Origin: Aliarcobacter butzleri
Lineage (GTDB): Bacteria; Campylobacterota; Campylobacteria; Campylobacterales; Arcobacteraceae
Assembly (NCBI RefSeq): GCF_900187115.1
Contig: NZ_LT906455.1
Location: 434,001 to 498,000 of the forward strand
DNA: 64,000 bases
Reading direction: 5' to 3'
The notes under the pieces: generated by a model
The model's input: the letters and a program-made list of their open reading frames with translations, nothing else
Told to the model about the DNA's origin: nothing
Database searches by the model: none
Made by a program: the position numbers and the translations under genes
Shown here: positions 1 through 8,288 of the stretch, one piece after another
Layout: every line of letters starts with the position of its first letter
Numbering within the stretch: position 1 is the first letter of the stretch

Positions 1-1031
1 TCTAAGCTATCTTCTATTATCAAAGATATTTTTATTTTATGAAGTTTTGCAAAATTTTTAAGTTCATTTATTGCTTCATCTGCAAGTTCATCTAAATAAA
101 ACTCTTCTTGTTTATCTACAATTAACTCTTGTTCATTTTTAGCTAAAAATAGTAAATCATTTATTGTTTGTTCAATCCCTGATATCTCTTCTAAAGATGT
201 TTTTAAAGCTTCTTTATATTCGTTTATCGTTCTATCTTTTCTTAAGGTTACTTCCATTTCACCTTTTATAATTGTAAGAGGAGTTTTTAGTTCGTGAGAA
301 GCATCTGAACTAAATTGTGACATTCTTTCAAAAGAGTTTTCAAGTCTTGATAATAAAGAATTAATTTCATTTATTAGTTGGTTTATTTCATCTTTTGATT
401 TTGTTGTTTTTAATCTTGCTGATAAATCATTTGCATTTATCTGTTTTAATTCAACTAAGATATTTTCAATTGGTAAAAACGATTTATAAATTACAAAATT
501 TCCACCAATAACAGCAAAGATAAGAATTATTGGGAGAATAAATCCTAAAATATAAAGAAGATTTTCCAAAGTTGAAGTTAAAATATCTTTTGTTGTAACT
601 GCTTCAATAATGATACTTTGTTCACCATGAAAATCTATTTTTATTCTACTTACAAAATAGCTGTATTGTTCTTCAAAAGTTATTACATTCTCTTTTAATT
701 TATCTAAATAATCATCGTTATGATCAATGTTATTTGGGAAATTATCTGTTTTGATTATTTCTTTGTGAGTTTTAGTATCTAAAATTCTAATATAAAGAGG
801 TTCAAAATTGTACTCTTTTTCTTCATCTAAAATATTATCTGTGATTTTATTTTTTTCTAAAATATCATCAGTAATATCAAGAACTATTACTTTTAGCGTT
901 GCTTCAAGTTTGTCAATAGTTGAAATTTCCAATGCTTTATATAAAGAAAAAGAAAAAATTACTAAAATAATAGTTTGAATAAAAAAACTATAAAATAGAA
1001 GTTTCTTTTTGATTGATAGATTAATCTTCAC
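1..1031 (-). CDS. Sensor histidine kinase, C-terminus outside window (partial)
   Basis: Inner-membrane sensor kinase, presumed partner of the OmpR-type regulator just upstream. Reading back from the window edge gives 343 residues: a membrane segment near residues 10-28, a periplasmic stretch, a second membrane segment near 150-170, a HAMP-like linker and a HisKA box with SHELKTPL, whose histidine is residue 246. The ATPase domain lies beyond position 1. No ATG fits the N-terminus. A GTG at 1031 overlaps the end of the regulator gene and gives a short basic start before the first membrane segment. This is the last visible gene of a nine-gene overlapping operon. Kinase identity is secure; the signal sensed is unknown, and the start is inferred. 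Confidence 0.88.
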   Translation of the reverse strand, partial: MKINLSIKKKLLFYSFFIQTIILVIFSFSLYKALEISTIDKLEATLKVIVLDITDDILEKNKITDNILDEEKEYNFEPLYIRILDTKTHKEIIKTDNFPNNIDHNDDYLDKLKENVITFEEQYSYFVSRIKIDFHGEQSIIIEAVTTKDILTSTLENLLYILGFILPIILIFAVIGGNFVIYKSFLPIENILVELKQINANDLSARLKTTKSKDEINQLINEINSLLSRLENSFERMSQFSSDASHELKTPLTIIKGEMEVTLRKDRTINEYKEALKTSLEEISGIEQTINDLLFLAKNEQELIVDKQEEFYLDELADEAINELKNFAKLHKIKISLIIEDSL

Positions 1032-1698
1032 TGATTTTAAATCCTATTCCTCTTACTGTTTTTATTAGTTTATTTTCAAAATTTTTATCGATTTTATTTC
1101 TTAATCTATAAATATAAACATTTACAATATTACTGATATTTGAATCTTCAAATGATGAAAGTGCTTCATTTATTGTTGTTTCACTTAAAACTCTATTTTT
1201 ATTTTTTATTAGATACTCTAAAAGTGAAAACTCTTTGGCTGTTAAAACTATATTTTGATTTGATCTTGAAGCTGTTTTATTGAGTAAATCAAGCTCTAAA
1301 TCTGCAATAGATAGTTTTGTTTGAGTAGTAGTTGTGATTCTTAATTGAACTCTAATTCTGGCAAGTAATTCTGCAAAAGAAAAAGGTTTTGCTAAATAAT
1401 CATTTGCTCCAATATCTAAACCTTTGATTTTATCTTCAATAGAATCTTTAGCTGTTAGCATAATAATAGGAGTTTGAATATTTGAGCTTCTTAAACTTTT
1501 ACATACTTCAATTCCATTTTTAACTGGAAGCATGATATCAAGTAAGATTAGATCATAAGTGTTAATACTAGCTAAGTATAATCCTTCATCACCATTTGTT
1601 GAGAAGTCAACTATATAACACTCTTCTTCTAAACCTTTTTTTAAAAAGTTTATGATTTTTAAATCATCTTCAATTATTAGTATCTTCATAGAAATCAT
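1021..1698 (-). CDS. OmpR/PhoB-family response regulator
   Basis: Cytoplasmic DNA-binding response regulator of 225 residues. The receiver domain (about 4-118) has the acidic pair EDD, the phospho-acceptor Asp54 in LLDIMLP, the conserved threonine in MLTAKD and the lysine in LAKPF. A winged-helix output domain follows (about 130-222), ending in RLRNKIDK and TVRGIGFKI. The first ATG overlaps the stop of the metallophosphoesterase gene by four bases, suggesting translational coupling. A second ATG three codons in (MKILIIEDD) is an equally family-like start. It probably controls its own operon; direct repeats near 7649-7677 are candidate sites. Confidence 0.93.
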   Translation of the reverse strand: MISMKILIIEDDLKIINFLKKGLEEECYIVDFSTNGDEGLYLASINTYDLILLDIMLPVKNGIEVCKSLRSSNIQTPIIMLTAKDSIEDKIKGLDIGANDYLAKPFSFAELLARIRVQLRITTTTQTKLSIADLELDLLNKTASRSNQNIVLTAKEFSLLEYLIKNKNRVLSETTINEALSSFEDSNISNIVNVYIYRLRNKIDKNFENKLIKTVRGIGFKISED

Positions 1699-2426
1699 TT
1701 TACACTTTTTGTTATTAATTTTAATATTGTAACTTCTGCATCTGCTTTAAATCTAAAATCAACTCCCCAAGTTCCCAAGCCTTTATTTACATAAATTGCT
1801 GTTTTATTTTTATAAAAAAGTCCAGCCAAAAAGGGTTGAACTAATTTTACTAAATAGTGAAAAGGATAGATTTGACCACCATGTGTATGACCACACAAAA
1901 ATAGATTTGAGTTTGAATTTAACGCAATTTTATAATCTTTTGGTTGATGAGAAATAAATATTGATGGAGAGTTTTGTAAAAAATCTTCTACTACTTTTTC
2001 TTCTCTTTTTATTTTAAAGAATTTTGAAAATCTATCTGGAAGTCCTGCTAGATGAATAATTTCATTTTTATAATTAATTTTTAAAGTTTCATTATCCATA
2101 AAAATAAAATTTGTTAACTCTTTTTTTAAATCTTCTAAGCCATAAAATAAATCGTGATTTCCACTTATATAAAAAACCTCTTTTTTCAATAAGTTTAAAA
2201 TTTCAAGTTGTTTTTTTATAAATTTTACTTTTGTATCGATTATATCTCCAGTGATAATGCAAAAGTCAAACTCTAAATTATTACAAAAATTTACGAGTTC
2301 TAAAATCTTTTCTATTGAAGTTTTTTTATTTATGTGTAAATCACTTAAATGAAGAATCTTTAAATCATCTAATTTTTTATCTTCTACTTCTATATTTATG
2401 ATTTGAAAATGTTTAGTTAAATTCAT
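1695..2426 (-). CDS. Calcineurin-like metallophosphoesterase
   Basis: Binuclear-metal phosphoesterase of 243 residues. The full motif set is visible: SDLH (DxH), TGDIID (GD), GNHD, HQP, and GHTHGGQ near the C-terminus. The family resembles the YkuE/YaeI group of membrane-lipid-related phosphoesterases, but there is no signal peptide and the substrate cannot be read from sequence. It overlaps both neighbours by four bases (2423-2426 and 1695-1698), so it sits inside the operon with YceI and the two-component genes. Confidence 0.88.
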   Translation of the reverse strand: MNLTKHFQIINIEVEDKKLDDLKILHLSDLHINKKTSIEKILELVNFCNNLEFDFCIITGDIIDTKVKFIKKQLEILNLLKKEVFYISGNHDLFYGLEDLKKELTNFIFMDNETLKINYKNEIIHLAGLPDRFSKFFKIKREEKVVEDFLQNSPSIFISHQPKDYKIALNSNSNLFLCGHTHGGQIYPFHYLVKLVQPFLAGLFYKNKTAIYVNKGLGTWGVDFRFKADAEVTILKLITKSVK

Positions 2427-2878
2427 TTTAAAAACTCCTCAAGTTCATATGTAGAAGATAAAAATCTAATATCTTTTATTACACCATTTTCCAAAGAATA
2501 AGTAGTTATTTTTCCAGTTTGTTTTGTAAATTTTGTATTGTTTTCATCATAAATTAGCAAGATGCTATATTTATAATCCCTTAGTTTTGGCAAAGTAAAC
2601 ATCTTTGTAATTATACTTGGAGTTGAAGAGATATTATTTATAACTATTGCTTGATGATTTTCCAAAAATAGCGGACTTTTCGATGATAGAAAATTATTTA
2701 CCATCGAAAGAGTCTCTTTTTCAAAAGTTACAATTATGATTTTTATATCATTTGTAATTGTATGAATTTTATCAAATTGGTCTATTAAAGAAAAATTACT
2801 TATTTTATCTTCAATTTTGAGATTTACTGCAAATAAAGAATTTACAAAAATTATCGATAATATAAGTTGTTTTATCAT
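2423..2878 (-). CDS. Periplasmic thioredoxin-fold-like protein without CxxC
   Basis: Small protein of 151 residues with a Sec-type signal (MIKQLILSIIFVNSLFA). The mature part begins like redoxins (ISNFSLIDQFDKIHTI) and has alternating hydrophobic strands ending in an IKDIRF segment, which suggests a peroxiredoxin/thioredoxin-like fold. There is no cysteine at all in the mature protein, so it cannot be a thiol oxidoreductase. Not recognised as a named family. It lies three bases after yceI and overlaps the phosphoesterase start. A scaffold, chaperone or binding role is possible but unproven. Confidence 0.6.
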   Translation of the reverse strand: MIKQLILSIIFVNSLFAVNLKIEDKISNFSLIDQFDKIHTITNDIKIIIVTFEKETLSMVNNFLSSKSPLFLENHQAIVINNISSTPSIITKMFTLPKLRDYKYSILLIYDENNTKFTKQTGKITTYSLENGVIKDIRFLSSTYELEEFLK

Positions 2879-2881
2879 CTT

Positions 2882-3406
2882 TTATCTTTTAAATTGAATT
2901 TTATAAGTAACATCAATTTGATTTCTAACTGTTAAAAAGAACATTGTTGGTGGTTCTAAATTAAAATCAGTTAGGTTAAATGAAAATCCTCCATCAAATA
3001 AAATTTGATTATTCTGCTCAGTTATATTGCTTTTTACTGTAATATCTTTTGAAACACCATTTAAAACAAGAACTCCATTAATATCGTAATTTATACCATT
3101 TTTTACAATATTTTTTATATCAATAGAGATAGTTTTAAATTTTGGTTCATTTAGTAATTCGTACATATGAGCATCTCTATCTTTTTTTTCGCTAACTAAA
3201 CTTAATGTATCGAAAAATATTTGACCTTTTATTGATTCTAAACTATTTTCAACTATTAAATTAGCTTTTACCTCTTTTGTTGTTGGGTTGATTTCGCTAT
3301 CGCCAAAAACTTCTGTATGACCCTTTATTTCACCTGTTACTACTGATAAGTTGTTTGCATACAAACTAAAACTTAAAACTATTAAAAGAACTATTTTTTT
3401 AAACAT
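2882..3406 (-). CDS. YceI-family periplasmic protein
   Basis: YceI-type beta-barrel protein of 174 residues that probably binds an isoprenoid or other lipid in the periplasm. It has a signal peptide (MFKKIVLLIVLSFSLYA), then the family pattern: a VVTGEIKGHTEVFG strand pair, DAHMYELLNEPKFKTISIDI in the middle, and the DINGVLVLNGVSKDITV hairpin, ending with FNLTDFNLEPP. It overlaps the upstream membrane-protein gene by eight bases. YceI proteins often accompany membrane redox proteins, which fits the oxidase-like gene two positions upstream. Confidence 0.88.
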   Translation of the reverse strand: MFKKIVLLIVLSFSLYANNLSVVTGEIKGHTEVFGDSEINPTTKEVKANLIVENSLESIKGQIFFDTLSLVSEKKDRDAHMYELLNEPKFKTISIDIKNIVKNGINYDINGVLVLNGVSKDITVKSNITEQNNQILFDGGFSFNLTDFNLEPPTMFFLTVRNQIDVTYKIQFKR

Positions 3407-4364
3407 ATTTAATCTCCTTGCTATTTGGTAAATACTCTTTACTCATTACTCTAAAAATTGCAAATAAAAGAGTAATTGGAACAAAGAATATCAAGTTAGC
3501 TAAAGCTATAGAAAGTCCAGCACCTGAAGCCATCCAACCTATAAATATCATATAAAATGAGATTGTTCTAAAATCTAATTTTTTTATAGATTGAAGAATT
3601 ACTACATTGTAATATGAAATTACAAATGGGTAAATCAATGATAAAATAAAACCCTCCCTTAAAAAATAAAATAGATATGAAAGTGCAAAAAGAGTAAGTA
3701 TTAATAACTCTTTTTGATTTTTTTCAATTTTAAAGAATAATGCACTAAATACACCAATTACATGAAATAATGCAATTTCAAAAGTAAAACCACCTCTCCA
3801 AATAGAAACGGCTAAATCTCTTGAAAGCGATTCAAATAGTGCAGAATCTAAAAATACCCATAAAATCATCATCAATAAAGAGTGACTTGTTGTATTTAGT
3901 TTTTCTCCTTCTTTCATATAATTTAAAAATAAAGAACAAAATAGAGTTATCATCGTAAGAGTTACTGCAATAATCTCTCTTTGAGAAACTTCATAATTAA
4001 AAAGCATTGTTCCTGTAACATAAGATAGACTTAATGCAAGACCAAGTTCTAAAAATGTAGTTTTTTTAACTTCATTTATAATTAGTGGAGCCATACTTCC
4101 AACAACAAAACCTAAAATAAAAAGAGTTAATAGGTTGTAATGTGGATACATAAAACTTAAAATTAGTTGTGCAACTAAAAATAGTGAAATTTTATTTTTT
4201 ATTTTTATGTATGAAACTAATAATGAACCTATAACTCCACCAATTGGAAGAGGAGCTATTAAAAATAAGTTTGATGAAAAATATTCAACAATTCCAGTTT
4301 GTGCTATAAGTAAGTAATAACATAACTCACTTGCAATAAAAAATATCAAAATTAATCTTTGCAT
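3399..4364 (-). CDS. Polytopic membrane protein, possibly transporter-like
   Basis: Hydrophobic protein of 321 residues with roughly ten predicted membrane segments and very short loops. The stretch LIAPLPIGGVIGSLLVSY and the alternating loop charge are reminiscent of a major-facilitator-like transporter, but no diagnostic motif is present and I do not recognise the family. It overlaps the oxidase-like gene by 13 bases and yceI by eight, so the three are very likely made together. It could be an assembly or partner subunit of the oxidase-like protein rather than a transporter. Confidence 0.6.
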   Translation of the reverse strand: MQRLILIFFIASELCYYLLIAQTGIVEYFSSNLFLIAPLPIGGVIGSLLVSYIKIKNKISLFLVAQLILSFMYPHYNLLTLFILGFVVGSMAPLIINEVKKTTFLELGLALSLSYVTGTMLFNYEVSQREIIAVTLTMITLFCSLFLNYMKEGEKLNTTSHSLLMMILWVFLDSALFESLSRDLAVSIWRGGFTFEIALFHVIGVFSALFFKIEKNQKELLILTLFALSYLFYFLREGFILSLIYPFVISYYNVVILQSIKKLDFRTISFYMIFIGWMASGAGLSIALANLIFFVPITLLFAIFRVMSKEYLPNSKEIKYV

Positions 4365-5923
4365 AAAAACTCCTTTTTTTGAATAAAAATTAAATAGATG
4401 AAAACAAAAGTTAAATCAAAAAGGCAAATTGCAAGTCCTTCAATCCCAAGTTTACCACTTGAATATAAAGCAAAAAACATAGAACTTGCAAATACTCTAA
4501 TAATCACAGATAAATTTGTTAATAACTGTTCATAACTCTCATTTTTTAAAGCTAAGTAGTGAATAATTCCTGTCGTACTTACAAAAGTAAAAACAACATA
4601 TTCATAAACTCCACTAAAGCTAAAACCTAAAATCGGATATAAAAAACTTGCTAGTAGAATTAAAATTACTCCTCCAATTCCATCACTTAAAATTCCTATT
4701 AGATTGTATAATCGAAGCTTTGAGTAAGAAGTATTTATTTTTATAAAAGCAAATATAAAACTAAATGCAACAACTCCAAATAAAGATCTAAAAATCCATA
4801 ATGTATGAGTTTCAAGTAAATTAAATCCAGCTTGTGTAAATCCTGAAATACTTAAAGCTGTAAAAATTCCTAAAATACCAATTAAATAAATTTCTAAAAA
4901 TATATTTTTATGTAGTTCTTTTATATGATTTATAAACATTGAAATAACCATAAAAAATACTCCAATTCCCATAGCAACATGTGCATGAGCAACTATTAAA
5001 TCATTTCTATGAAATACCCATCTAATTTCTGGAATGAACAGAATATTTCCTTCAACATCAACAAATAAAAAAGCTAAAATAGAAACTAATAGAGCTTTTT
5101 TAGCAACATCACTGATATTACTATCTTTGTACCATCTATATAAAAGTGGAACATATAAAAGAGTTAGATATTGCAAAAACCACTCTTGGTTATATGATAG
5201 ATGACCAATAAAAATTCTGTATAAAACTGAACTAAAATAAAAAATTGTTGGAATAATCCATAAAATATTCCATCTAGCTTTGAATTCACCCTCATTTAAT
5301 AGTTTGATGATTAAATAATAAATAGGAATTAAAGCTAAACTCATTCCAAGTGTATTATCTCCATGAGGTCCAGATATTGTACTTTCAACTTGTCCAATTG
5401 TTGGATTCATCAAAATCAAAAGTGTAAATGGAGCAATTGTTACAACTCTTAAACACACTTTTATCCATAAAGGAAGAACTTTATAAAGTTTGATAAATTT
5501 GTATAAAGCCAAGATATAAAATAGTCCAGCAAATGCCAATAAAAAGTTTAGTTCATAAGCAAAATCATAAAAAGCTAAACCTCTATTTTTACCTAAAAGT
5601 AAAGACATAACCATAAAAACTAAAAATATATACCAAATAAGAGTATAAAGATTTAAAAACTTAAGTCCTTCATTTGAAATTCCAGCTTCTTTATTTATAA
5701 GTAAGAAAGGTAAATATGAAAGCATTAAAGGAACAAAACCATAAAGCATTAAACTTATATGAATTGCTCTCATATTCACAGGATTTAAAGTTTCAGAATC
5801 TATAATAAATCCTAATAAGTTTAATGAATAAACAATTCCAAAAAATAATCCTATTGCAAAAAAAGCAATAGATATTTTAAAATGTCTATTGATAAATTGT
5901 TCAAAATTAACTGATTTTTCCAT
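4352..5923 (-). CDS. Divergent heme-copper-oxidase-like membrane protein
   Basis: Membrane protein of 523 residues with about 12-14 membrane segments. Its layout follows subunit I of the cbb3/NorB branch of heme-copper oxidases: His55 in MRAIHISLMLYGF matches the helix-2 heme ligand, His187 in GPHGDNTLG matches the first CuB ligand, and HAHVAMGIG (His313, His315) matches the paired helix-10 heme ligands. The usual HH pair of helix 7 is not evident; only His241 in IGHLSYNQEW is near it. So heme binding looks likely, but a complete copper site does not. The gene overlaps the ABC ATPase and the downstream membrane protein. The family assignment is by eye and moderate; catalysis is uncertain. Confidence 0.6.
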   Translation of the reverse strand: MEKSVNFEQFINRHFKISIAFFAIGLFFGIVYSLNLLGFIIDSETLNPVNMRAIHISLMLYGFVPLMLSYLPFLLINKEAGISNEGLKFLNLYTLIWYIFLVFMVMSLLLGKNRGLAFYDFAYELNFLLAFAGLFYILALYKFIKLYKVLPLWIKVCLRVVTIAPFTLLILMNPTIGQVESTISGPHGDNTLGMSLALIPIYYLIIKLLNEGEFKARWNILWIIPTIFYFSSVLYRIFIGHLSYNQEWFLQYLTLLYVPLLYRWYKDSNISDVAKKALLVSILAFLFVDVEGNILFIPEIRWVFHRNDLIVAHAHVAMGIGVFFMVISMFINHIKELHKNIFLEIYLIGILGIFTALSISGFTQAGFNLLETHTLWIFRSLFGVVAFSFIFAFIKINTSYSKLRLYNLIGILSDGIGGVILILLASFLYPILGFSFSGVYEYVVFTFVSTTGIIHYLALKNESYEQLLTNLSVIIRVFASSMFFALYSSGKLGIEGLAICLFDLTFVFIYLIFIQKKEFLCKD

Positions 5924-6530
5924 CTTTTACCTCATAAATTTTATTTGCAAACTTTGCTAAATCTTTATCGTGTGTAGCAACTATTATTGTTGTTCCACTT
6001 TCACTTAATTTTTTAAAAATTTCAAAAACGTTTAAAGAGTTTTTTGAATCTAAATTTCCTGTTGGCTCATCTGCGATTATTACTTTTGGTCTGTTTATCA
6101 AAGCTCTTGCTATTGCAACTCTTTGTTTTTGACCTCCTGAAATTTCGTTTGGATATTTATCTATTAGATTTTCTATTTTCAAAATTTTTAATAGATTATA
6201 AATTTCCTCATGTGTTGCTTTTTCTTTTGCGAGTTTTATATTTTCTTTAACTGTTAAATAGTTTATTAAATAATGAAATTGAAAGATAAAACCGATATTT
6301 GTTCTTCTAAAACTATCGATATCTTCTATATCTTTATAATTCTTTCCTTCAAAAAAAAGTTGACCACTTGTTTGTTTTAAAAGAGTAGATAAAAGTGATA
6401 AAAGTGTAGATTTTCCACTTCCACTTTCACCTACTAAACATATAAATTCTCCTTTGTTTATTTGTAAATTTATATTTTCTAAAGCTAAATCTTTATTGTA
6501 ATAGTGTGTTAAATGAACTGCTTTTATCAT
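5907..6530 (-). CDS. ABC transporter ATP-binding protein, LolD/MacB type
   Basis: Cytoplasmic ATPase of 207 residues. Walker A is GESGSGKS, the Q-loop is IFQFHYL, the signature is SGGQKQRVAIARAL, Walker B is VIIADEPTGNLDS and the switch histidine is in VATHDKD. TGNLDS is typical of the LolD/MacB/FtsE group, which pairs with permeases carrying large periplasmic domains, exactly what the next gene upstream encodes. It overlaps the permease gene by four bases and the oxidase-like gene by 17. Its likely role is to drive export or envelope work for this operon; the substrate is unknown. Confidence 0.9.
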   Translation of the reverse strand: MIKAVHLTHYYNKDLALENINLQINKGEFICLVGESGSGKSTLLSLLSTLLKQTSGQLFFEGKNYKDIEDIDSFRRTNIGFIFQFHYLINYLTVKENIKLAKEKATHEEIYNLLKILKIENLIDKYPNEISGGQKQRVAIARALINRPKVIIADEPTGNLDSKNSLNVFEIFKKLSESGTTIIVATHDKDLAKFANKIYEVKDGKIS

Positions 6531-7609
6531 ATTTTATTTCCTTGAATAAGTTCAACTGGATCAGTTTTTGCAGCATTTAAAGCTGGAATTATTGAACCAA
6601 TAATTGCCATTAAAATAGAAGTAACAAAGATATAAAAACCTAATTCAATAGATATCTCTCCATTTACATAACCTTGTAGAGTTTTTGCATTTTTTACAAA
6701 ATACAAAGTTACATTTGAAATAATAAAGGCACAAACAAAACTAAAAACTCCGAGTAAAAAACTCTCAACCATTATTGAATAAACGATTTTTGATGTTTTT
6801 ATTCCTAAAGCTCTTTTTATTCCAAATTCAGCTTTTCTTTGATTTATTGTGATACTCATAAGGCTTACAATTCCAAGTAAACCCATGGAAAAAGCGATAA
6901 ATGAAATAACATTTGATGAAGTTTTTATGATTTTGAATTGATTGTAGTTATCTACAAAATTTTGTGTTGATTTAACATCAATATCTTCTGATAAATTTTT
7001 AATCTCTTTTATAATATTTTCAACATCTGCATTTAAAGTTGTGTTTACTAAAATCATTGAAGCTGATTTATTAAAAATATTTCCAGCATCATCTATATTT
7101 AAAACAACACCACCATTTTCAAAACCAATTTCACTTTTAAAAACTCCAGAGATTTTAAAACTTTTATTTGCAATTTGAATTTCATTTTTATTTACTAGTT
7201 GTTCAAATATTGATTTTCCAATAATTACTTCATTTTGTGATGGATATTTTCCTTGTGTTAAAGTGTAATTTTTAAATCTATTTTGCGTTACTCCATAAAC
7301 TGCAATGATTGGAAGTTTTTCAACAGGACTTGCTCCTACAATCATCGCTGATGTATCTTTTATATCTTTTAAGTTATTTATTTGTTCAATTAAGTTGATA
7401 TTTACATTTGAAAAAAATGTATCAGATATTTTTGCTTGAGTAACTATAATATCTCCATCACTTTTTAGAAGTGTTGAATACATAGAGATAACTCCATTTG
7501 AAATAGAACTAATCAAAAATATAGAAACTATCGAAAAAATGAGACTTAAAACGATTAAAAAGGTTTTTAGTTTATTTGCAAATAGTGCTTTAAAAGCATA
7601 TGAAACCAA
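6527..7609 (-). CDS. ABC transporter permease, MacB/FtsX-like
   Basis: Inner-membrane permease of 360 residues. An N-terminal membrane helix (about 10-35) is followed by a periplasmic MacB-type domain (about 40-225) and three C-terminal helices of the FtsX-like domain (about 235-350). The sequence GIKRALGIKTSKIV after the second helix is the usual coupling segment, and the protein ends PALNAAKTDPVELIQG as in this family. It is the first gene of the nine-gene minus-strand operon. No adaptor or outer-membrane channel lies next to it, so a full tripartite pump is not evident here. Confidence 0.9.
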   Translation of the reverse strand: MVSYAFKALFANKLKTFLIVLSLIFSIVSIFLISSISNGVISMYSTLLKSDGDIIVTQAKISDTFFSNVNINLIEQINNLKDIKDTSAMIVGASPVEKLPIIAVYGVTQNRFKNYTLTQGKYPSQNEVIIGKSIFEQLVNKNEIQIANKSFKISGVFKSEIGFENGGVVLNIDDAGNIFNKSASMILVNTTLNADVENIIKEIKNLSEDIDVKSTQNFVDNYNQFKIIKTSSNVISFIAFSMGLLGIVSLMSITINQRKAEFGIKRALGIKTSKIVYSIMVESFLLGVFSFVCAFIISNVTLYFVKNAKTLQGYVNGEISIELGFYIFVTSILMAIIGSIIPALNAAKTDPVELIQGNKI

Positions 7610-7648
7610 GATAACTCCTTTCTTATTTTTTGAAAGTTTAATCTTTGA

Positions 7649-7692
7649 ATATGAATATATGATGAATTAAATATGAATTTTTGTTCATATTT
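7649..7692. promoter_or_regulatory. Candidate operator upstream of the oxidase-like/two-component operon
   Basis: Two copies of ATATGAA start at 7649 and 7671, 22 bases (about two helical turns) apart. AAATATGAA (7669-7677) also forms a perfect nine-base inverted repeat with TTCATATTT (7684-7692) across six bases. OmpR-type regulators commonly bind direct repeats, and one is encoded in this operon. That this is its site is inference. Confidence 0.4.
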
Positions 7693-7700
7693 ATTTGATT

Positions 7701-8288
7701 TTAGTATTTATTTAGATTTGATAATGATAGTTTATGAAAAGTCAGGTATTTTGAGTTTGTGTTACCTATATATTTAAAAAAGTCTATATTTCTAATAGTA
7801 AATATTTTTATAAAATCTTCTTTTTTTAGATTTTCAAATTCAAAATGAGTCTCTATATATTTTTCTTGATAGTTTTTAAAATAACTTTCTTCAAACTTTA
7901 AAGGCTCTTTTCCTTTATTTATTTCAGGACAAGAACTATCTATATAAATTTGATTATCCAGATTTGGACTTAAAGGATAAGTTTTACATACGATTGGACG
8001 ATTTTCATAAATAGTACATTTAAAATTTTTTAAGTGCGGACAAAAATCAAAGCCATTAGACAACAAAATGACAGGTTTTATGAATTTTAAAGAACCAAAT
8101 ATAAATAAGATAGGAAAATTTTTATAAGTGGCTTCAAACTCTTCTTTTAAAATTTGGGAATAAATACTTCCATGTAATCCACTACAACAATGTGCTTGGC
8201 AATTTTTACAATTTCCAAAAGTAAAGTTTTGATTTAAAGTAGGAATAAAATCTTTCATAAAAGGGATTTTACATATATTTTGTTTCAA
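7701..8288 (-). CDS. YkgJ-family cysteine-cluster protein
   Basis: Protein of 195 residues with the N-terminal cluster CKNCQAHCC (Cys27, 30, 34, 35) and a second set in FCPHLKNFKCTIYENRP followed by CKTYPL. These spaced cysteines define the YkgJ/UPF0153 family, thought to bind zinc or an iron-sulfur cluster. Some relatives are annotated as flagellin lysine methylases, but nothing here tests that. The gene is monocistronic, separated from the operon behind it and divergent from suhB. Confidence 0.8.
   Translation of the reverse strand: MKQNICKIPFMKDFIPTLNQNFTFGNCKNCQAHCCSGLHGSIYSQILKEEFEATYKNFPILFIFGSLKFIKPVILLSNGFDFCPHLKNFKCTIYENRPIVCKTYPLSPNLDNQIYIDSSCPEINKGKEPLKFEESYFKNYQEKYIETHFEFENLKKEDFIKIFTIRNIDFFKYIGNTNSKYLTFHKLSLSNLNKY

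Follow-up and report, generated by a model that had tools for sequence, protein, structure and literature searches.

A heme-copper-oxidase-fold protein without the helix VII histidine pair, encoded in an apparent operon with ABC transporter genes in Aliarcobacter butzleri

Introduction

Members of the heme-copper oxidase (HCO) superfamily carry a six-histidine signature, in which, as a rule, three histidines are on CuB or FeB (PMC3413370); the same three ligands are given as the rule in a second account (PMC3578206). If a protein has the fold and the heme ligands of this superfamily and yet lacks most of these metal ligands, then what does it do? The question is raised by a gene within the window considered here, i.e. 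the whole stretch of 64,000 nucleotides analysed from A. butzleri (contig NZ_LT906455.1, positions 434,001 to 498,000). In a first-pass annotation, its product was described as an HCO-like protein with apparently incomplete copper ligands, and as a possible heme sensor, NO-binding protein, or member of a new reductase family.

Operon structure and gene content

The HCO-like gene is the third of nine genes in an apparent operon, which begins with an ABC permease gene and ends with a sensor histidine kinase gene (Table 1). Each gene overlaps the next by 4 to 17 bp, with the exception of a 3-bp gap after the YceI gene, and the HCO-like gene overlaps the ABC ATPase gene by 17 bp and the gene of the membrane protein c0 by 13 bp. 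The first-pass annotation had described fusion by overlap to an ABC transporter, YceI, and a two-component system. The chain of overlaps is real, and runs through YceI, the small exported protein, the phosphoesterase, and the two-component system, although the HCO-like gene directly overlaps the ATPase and c0 genes alone. The absence of oxidase partner subunits was also borne out, as no CcoO/P, NorC, or CoxB is present among the identified neighbours.

Table 1. Features of the apparent operon and its upstream region, in coordinates of the window.
Feature	Position	Strand	Remarks
Operator-like triple direct repeat TTCAT, 11-bp spacing	7651..7677	(-)	about 42-68 bp upstream of permease start
Inverted repeat TATGAA-N6-TTCATA	7662..7689	(-)	overlaps the direct repeats; single exact site in the genome
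ABC permease	6527..7609	(-)	MacB_PCD and FtsX domains; first gene
ABC transporter ATPase	5907..6530	(-)	LolD/FtsE/MacB type
HCO-fold protein, 523 aa	4352..5923	(-)	12-helix core and 4 C-terminal helices
Membrane protein c0, 321 aa	3399..4364	(-)	unnamed
YceI-like periplasmic protein	2882..3406	(-)	lipid/isoprenoid-binding type
Small exported protein	2423..2878	(-)	without Pfam family
Calcineurin-like phosphoesterase	1695..2426	(-)	nearest NCBIfam YaeI/LpxG, below cut-off
OmpR-family response regulator	1021..1698	(-)	nearest heavy-metal (CopR/CzcR) subfamily, below cut-off
Sensor histidine kinase	3..1031	(-)	cut by window edge

The small exported protein looks thioredoxin-like by eye, but it has no cysteines, and searches of Pfam and the PDB returned no match. 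A full-length orthologue of the histidine kinase (locus L024) is nearest to cztS/silS/copS, with a score below the cut-off. Just upstream of the operon, at 7701-8288 (-), lies a gene for a putative metal-chelating protein with a CxxCxxCC motif; the gene in this position differs among relatives, which places it outside the conserved cluster.

Predicted fold of the HCO-like protein

The open reading frame was confirmed as a real gene, with orthologues of 41-99% identity in many genomes. With the single protein as query, Pfam COX1 (PF00115) scored 24.7 bits, under its gathering score of 34.8, and searches of NCBIfam and of solved structures in the PDB returned no match; the orthologues score 18-20 bits against the CcoN model TIGR00780, the cut-off of which is 583. 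At the family level, 41 of 46 relatives matched PF00115 at E ≤ 0.01, a family profile matched cbb3 subunit I alone in the PDB (E 0.0013), and hhalign of the family against a combined CcoN/NOR profile gave a probability of 97-99% (E ≤ 1e-11).

A structural comparison with CcoN and NorB had been suggested in the first-pass annotation, and was carried out with an AlphaFold model (pLDDT 87.7, pTM 0.87). By VIA, the model aligned with the cNOR structure 4xyd over 369 residues (Z 27.2, rmsd 3.9) and with the cbb3 structure 3mk7 over 367 residues (Z 26.6), while Foldseek ranked 3mk7 first (E 2.5e-7). The span aligned to cbb3/cNOR subunit I comprises residues 1-398, and the helices beyond the 12-helix core are predicted at 402-432, 440-460, 462-488, and 494-514. 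Matches of a fragment model to LTC4 synthase (Z ~10) were judged to reflect a common four-helix arrangement. On the basis of these models, the protein is a member of the heme-copper-oxidase superfamily by fold, and an unrelated fold, which was looked for as a refuting outcome, was not seen.

Conserved and missing ligands

Residue conservation was assessed in an alignment of 61 HCO-like sequences with identity down to 41%. Histidines 55, 187, 305, 313, and 315 are invariant, and H455, at a position outside the core, is a histidine in 60 of the 61. Helix registers were then scored by ungapped profile against CcoN, cNOR, and qNOR. The register of helices IX-X is unambiguous (z 6.8, 4.2, and 6.0, respectively), and therefore H313 and H315 correspond to the helix X ligands; together with H305, they fall on known HCO positions in this helix. 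In helix II, placing H55 on the low-spin heme ligand gave the top-ranked register against cNOR and the third-ranked against CcoN. All 61 sequences have the bis-histidine ligand set for the low-spin heme (H55 and H315), as well as H313, the high-spin heme's proximal histidine.

In contrast, no plausible register of helices VI, VII, and VIII scored above noise against the CcoN, cNOR, or qNOR profiles. Profile-profile alignments of helices VI-VII differ by several residues between programs, and where H187 and R236 fall with respect to the CuB ligands varies from one alignment to another. The ligand positions proposed earlier for H55, H313, and H315 are secure, but H187 would be equivalent to the first CuB histidine only approximately, to within about two residues.

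Every HCO checked has the CuB/FeB histidine pair in the helix VII region. In the 61 HCO-like sequences, helix VII and the following loop, up to the start of helix VIII, lack any conserved histidine, and the absence of the pair is therefore independent of the register. The missing HH pair of the first-pass annotation accordingly extends to all 61 sequences, but H241, which had been named as the nearest candidate, is a histidine in only ten of them and is not a family ligand. Of the three CuB/FeB histidines, H187 is at most the one that is left. By predicted fold and conserved heme ligands, then, the protein is an HCO, but when judged by its CuB ligands it is not a usual HCO enzyme.

Since helices VI-VIII have no recognisable similarity to HCO sequences while helices IX-X do, the metal side of the active site has been rebuilt, around H187, D189, N190, Y229, and R236. 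Each of the last four, as well as E247 and the motif GPHGDN, is invariant in the 61 sequences. The spacing of seven between Y229 and R236 equals that from the cross-linked tyrosine to the second CuB histidine in CcoN. It is an attractive but unproven reading of the sequences that R236 takes the place of this histidine and Y229 that of the tyrosine. When a model of residues 1-238 was superposed on known structures, the pairings disagreed: 8smr paired residue 236 with 258, which would be the second CuB histidine provided that the entry uses P. stutzeri numbering, but 3mk7 and 9g6b paired residue 238 with 270/271.

Phylogenetic position

Phylogeny within the superfamily, also suggested in the first-pass annotation, sets the family apart. 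In a tree of 39 sequences, the HCO-like proteins form one clade (support 100/100) on a branch of ~4 changes per site, outside the CcoN, cNOR, qNOR, and gNOR-like sequences; with such long branches, the exact point of attachment is unsure. A normal CcoN and a quinol-type NO reductase of 744 aa are also encoded in the genome of the window. A second NOR-like type of 743-765 aa, with GTFHH replacing GxGHH (gNOR-like; L113-L116), was seen in one genus of the phylum. A 2024 survey reportedly describes new NOR families (eNOR, sNOR, nNOR, and others) with specific active-site residues. No paper on the present operon, or on an HCO without the pair, was found in the literature covered, of which this survey was not a part.

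Distribution and conservation of the gene cluster

Of the 298 Campylobacterota genomes sampled, 33 (about one in nine) encode the HCO-like protein, and the same 33 encode c0. Relatives with named records belong to Aliarcobacter, Arcobacter, Halarcobacter, Poseidonibacter, Sulfurospirillum, Sulfurimonas, and Sulfurovum. The family was seen in Campylobacterota only, the wider scan having used short peptides of the window's protein, and a plasmid search returned no match. Searches of Pfam, NCBIfam, and PDB sequences with c0 itself also returned none. Overall, c0 is an obligate, dedicated membrane partner of the HCO-like protein.

In a census of 33 loci, some of which represent one genome present in two collections, c0 accompanies the HCO-like gene at all 33, and the counts are 32 for the permease, 31 for the ATPase, and 29 for YceI. 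The usual setting is thus beside YceI and an ABC transporter of the MacB/Lol, or lipid, type. Sulfurovum-type genomes have a rearranged gene order, and the two-component system adjoins the cluster mainly in Arcobacteraceae. The c0 gene is intact in nearly all other carriers sampled, but at locus L086 (G055; ~6200-8030) it is split into two frames ~900 bp apart, with two antisense open reading frames (154 and 157 aa) between the halves; this interruption is probably an insertion element. Several Sulfurovum-type loci also encode, close to the cluster, a metallo-beta-lactamase-fold hydrolase (Lactamase_B_2; L041:5417-6328 and nine related open reading frames).

A link with N2O reduction was considered and rejected, as NosZ is present in about half of the carriers and missing from the genome of the window. 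The distribution of NosZ therefore lends no support to a denitrification role. In the same search, frames of 400-570 aa that are not NosZ (in G206, G217, G231, G324, G286, and others) weakly matched the C-terminal end of NosZ, and probably encode other cupredoxin-domain copper proteins.

An operator-like repeat upstream of the operon

The exact operator-like site upstream of the permease gene occurs once in the genome of the window. Among 35 loci, 20 have a TTCAT repeat upstream at a similar distance, with ≤ 0.01 expected for each in a mononucleotide shuffle, although the loci are partly non-independent. Direct repeats spaced by 11 bp are typical of OmpR-family regulators, and for this reason the operon's own response regulator is probably in control. 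Taken with its two-component system and operator, the operon is seen to be an inducible module of the envelope, with which a sensor, an NO binder, and a reductase are all compatible.

Proposed function and alternatives

The reading preferred here, to which a probability of roughly 0.4 is given, is that the HCO-like protein is a membrane redox enzyme with two b hemes and no canonical CuB that serves an inducible envelope-stress function. Two b-type hemes would be bound near the periplasmic face. Electrons would pass from a donor, conjectured to be quinol, to the low-spin heme and on to the open heme, where a small oxidant, by conjecture NO, peroxide, or some other toxic or signalling molecule, would be bound and probably reduced. 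The pocket at the open heme would be lined by invariant polar residues such as H187, Y229, and R236, in place of the CuB metal. The ABC transporter, YceI, and c0 may work with the HCO-like protein in envelope stress or repair, and the operon's sensor kinase would switch this function on.

Quinol is the probable donor because most clusters encode no cytochrome subunit. A different donor is, however, conceivable in four Sulfurovum-type loci, where a multiheme c-type cytochrome is encoded near the cluster on the same strand (L078:2881-4653, L079:1-1557, L091, and L042:3-344), with 7-9 CxxCH motifs in the longer copies; at these loci it is a possible electron partner.

A tentative variant would assign redox catalysis to the HCO-like protein and c0 together, as a B-metal-free HCO fold in which the copper site beside heme b3 has given way to an invariant arginine, tyrosine, and histidine. 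The reaction would then be new to the superfamily, and coupled to the ABC transporter.

If, in contrast, the protein were a non-catalytic sensor of gas or redox state, then a ligand on heme b3 would shift the conformation of the HCO-like/c0 pair, and so gate the ABC transporter or inform the histidine kinase. Loss of the metal site and of the oxidase subunits would fit such a role, as would an operon with an ABC transporter, a two-component system, and a dedicated operator. However, the HCO-like/c0 pair is kept in many clusters without an adjacent two-component system, both sets of heme ligands are invariant where one heme would suffice for gas sensing, and the four extra helices and the partner hint at more than sensing. 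A sensor of this kind is rather doubtful.

An oxidase- or NOR-like enzyme with a non-canonical B metal (e.g. Fe), held by H187 and the acidic or amide residues D189, N190, and E247, would explain why GPHGDN and E247 do not vary; NORs already use a glutamate near FeB, and putative NO dismutases tolerate a change of one histidine to asparagine (PMC3413370). Against this, no more than one conserved histidine is left on the metal side, the invariant arginine of helix VII, near the expected pair, would be unfavourable beside a metal, and the genome already has CcoN and qNOR. Such an enzyme is unlikely.

It is less probable still that the protein is a catalytically dead HCO relative that serves an ABC/c0 complex as scaffold, as heme carrier, or in its assembly. 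The degenerate active site, the obligate pairing with c0, and the conserved ABC genes would agree with this, but the invariance of the heme-ligand histidines and of several polar residues in the rebuilt helices across the 61 sequences goes beyond the needs of a scaffold. Finally, that misalignment has hidden the CuB histidines of an ordinary HCO can be dismissed almost entirely. Uncertain as the registers of helices VI-VIII are, the only conserved histidines are the six listed above; three of them fall on known HCO positions in helix X and H455 is outside the core, so that no register could yield three at CuB, an outcome that was looked for and not seen.

In the preferred reading of a diheme-b redox enzyme, what looks like a respiratory-type enzyme would have been turned to an envelope job. 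With heme ligands retained, the metal pair gone, and c0 as its fixed partner, this clade, which is conserved in much of one phylum, shows that the HCO fold is reusable. In addition, the HCO-like protein, c0, the ABC transporter, and YceI, with an operator of a single target, offer a clean genetic unit for finding a new function.

Comparison with known systems

Among ABC systems of the LolCDE/MacB type, the combination of an ABC ATPase with an FtsX/MacB_PCD permease is the same as in the HCO-like operon. The ABC genes here, in contrast, are linked to an HCO-fold protein and to c0, and their scores fall under the LolD, LolCE, and MacB cut-offs.

CcoN, subunit I of the C-type cbb3 oxidases (3mk7, 8smr), resembles the HCO-like protein in the 12-helix fold, in the heme b/b3 histidines, and in the EG...H...H.H signature of helices IX-X. 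Unlike CcoN, the HCO-like protein has no CuB histidine pair and no CcoO/CcoP, has four additional C-terminal helices, and shows no recognisable sequence similarity in helices VI-VIII. In the Nitrospina cbb3-like oxidase, unusual residues occur near the CuB site and the histidine at 207 is retained (PMC3578206); the changes there are in nearby residues, whereas in the HCO-like protein the helix VII pair itself is lost.

The fold is equally like that of NorB/qNOR (4xyd, 3o0r, 6qq5), with the VIA score against 4xyd tied with that of cbb3, and the AHAH.A motif of helix X is common to NorB/NorZ and the HCO-like protein. However, the FeB histidine pair, NorC or a fused cytochrome c domain, and the helix VI motif HLWVE (H...E) are all missing from the HCO-like protein.

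The putative NO dismutases of Methylomirabilis and HdN1 likewise combine the HCO fold with an altered B-metal site; in these, one of the six signature histidines is an asparagine and the other five are kept (PMC3413370). A dismutase of this kind is plainly a qNOR, whereas the HCO-like family lies outside qNOR in the tree rather than nesting with it, and keeps four signature histidines at most. Therefore, while this best-known exception changes one of the three CuB histidines, at most one of the three can remain in the family described here.
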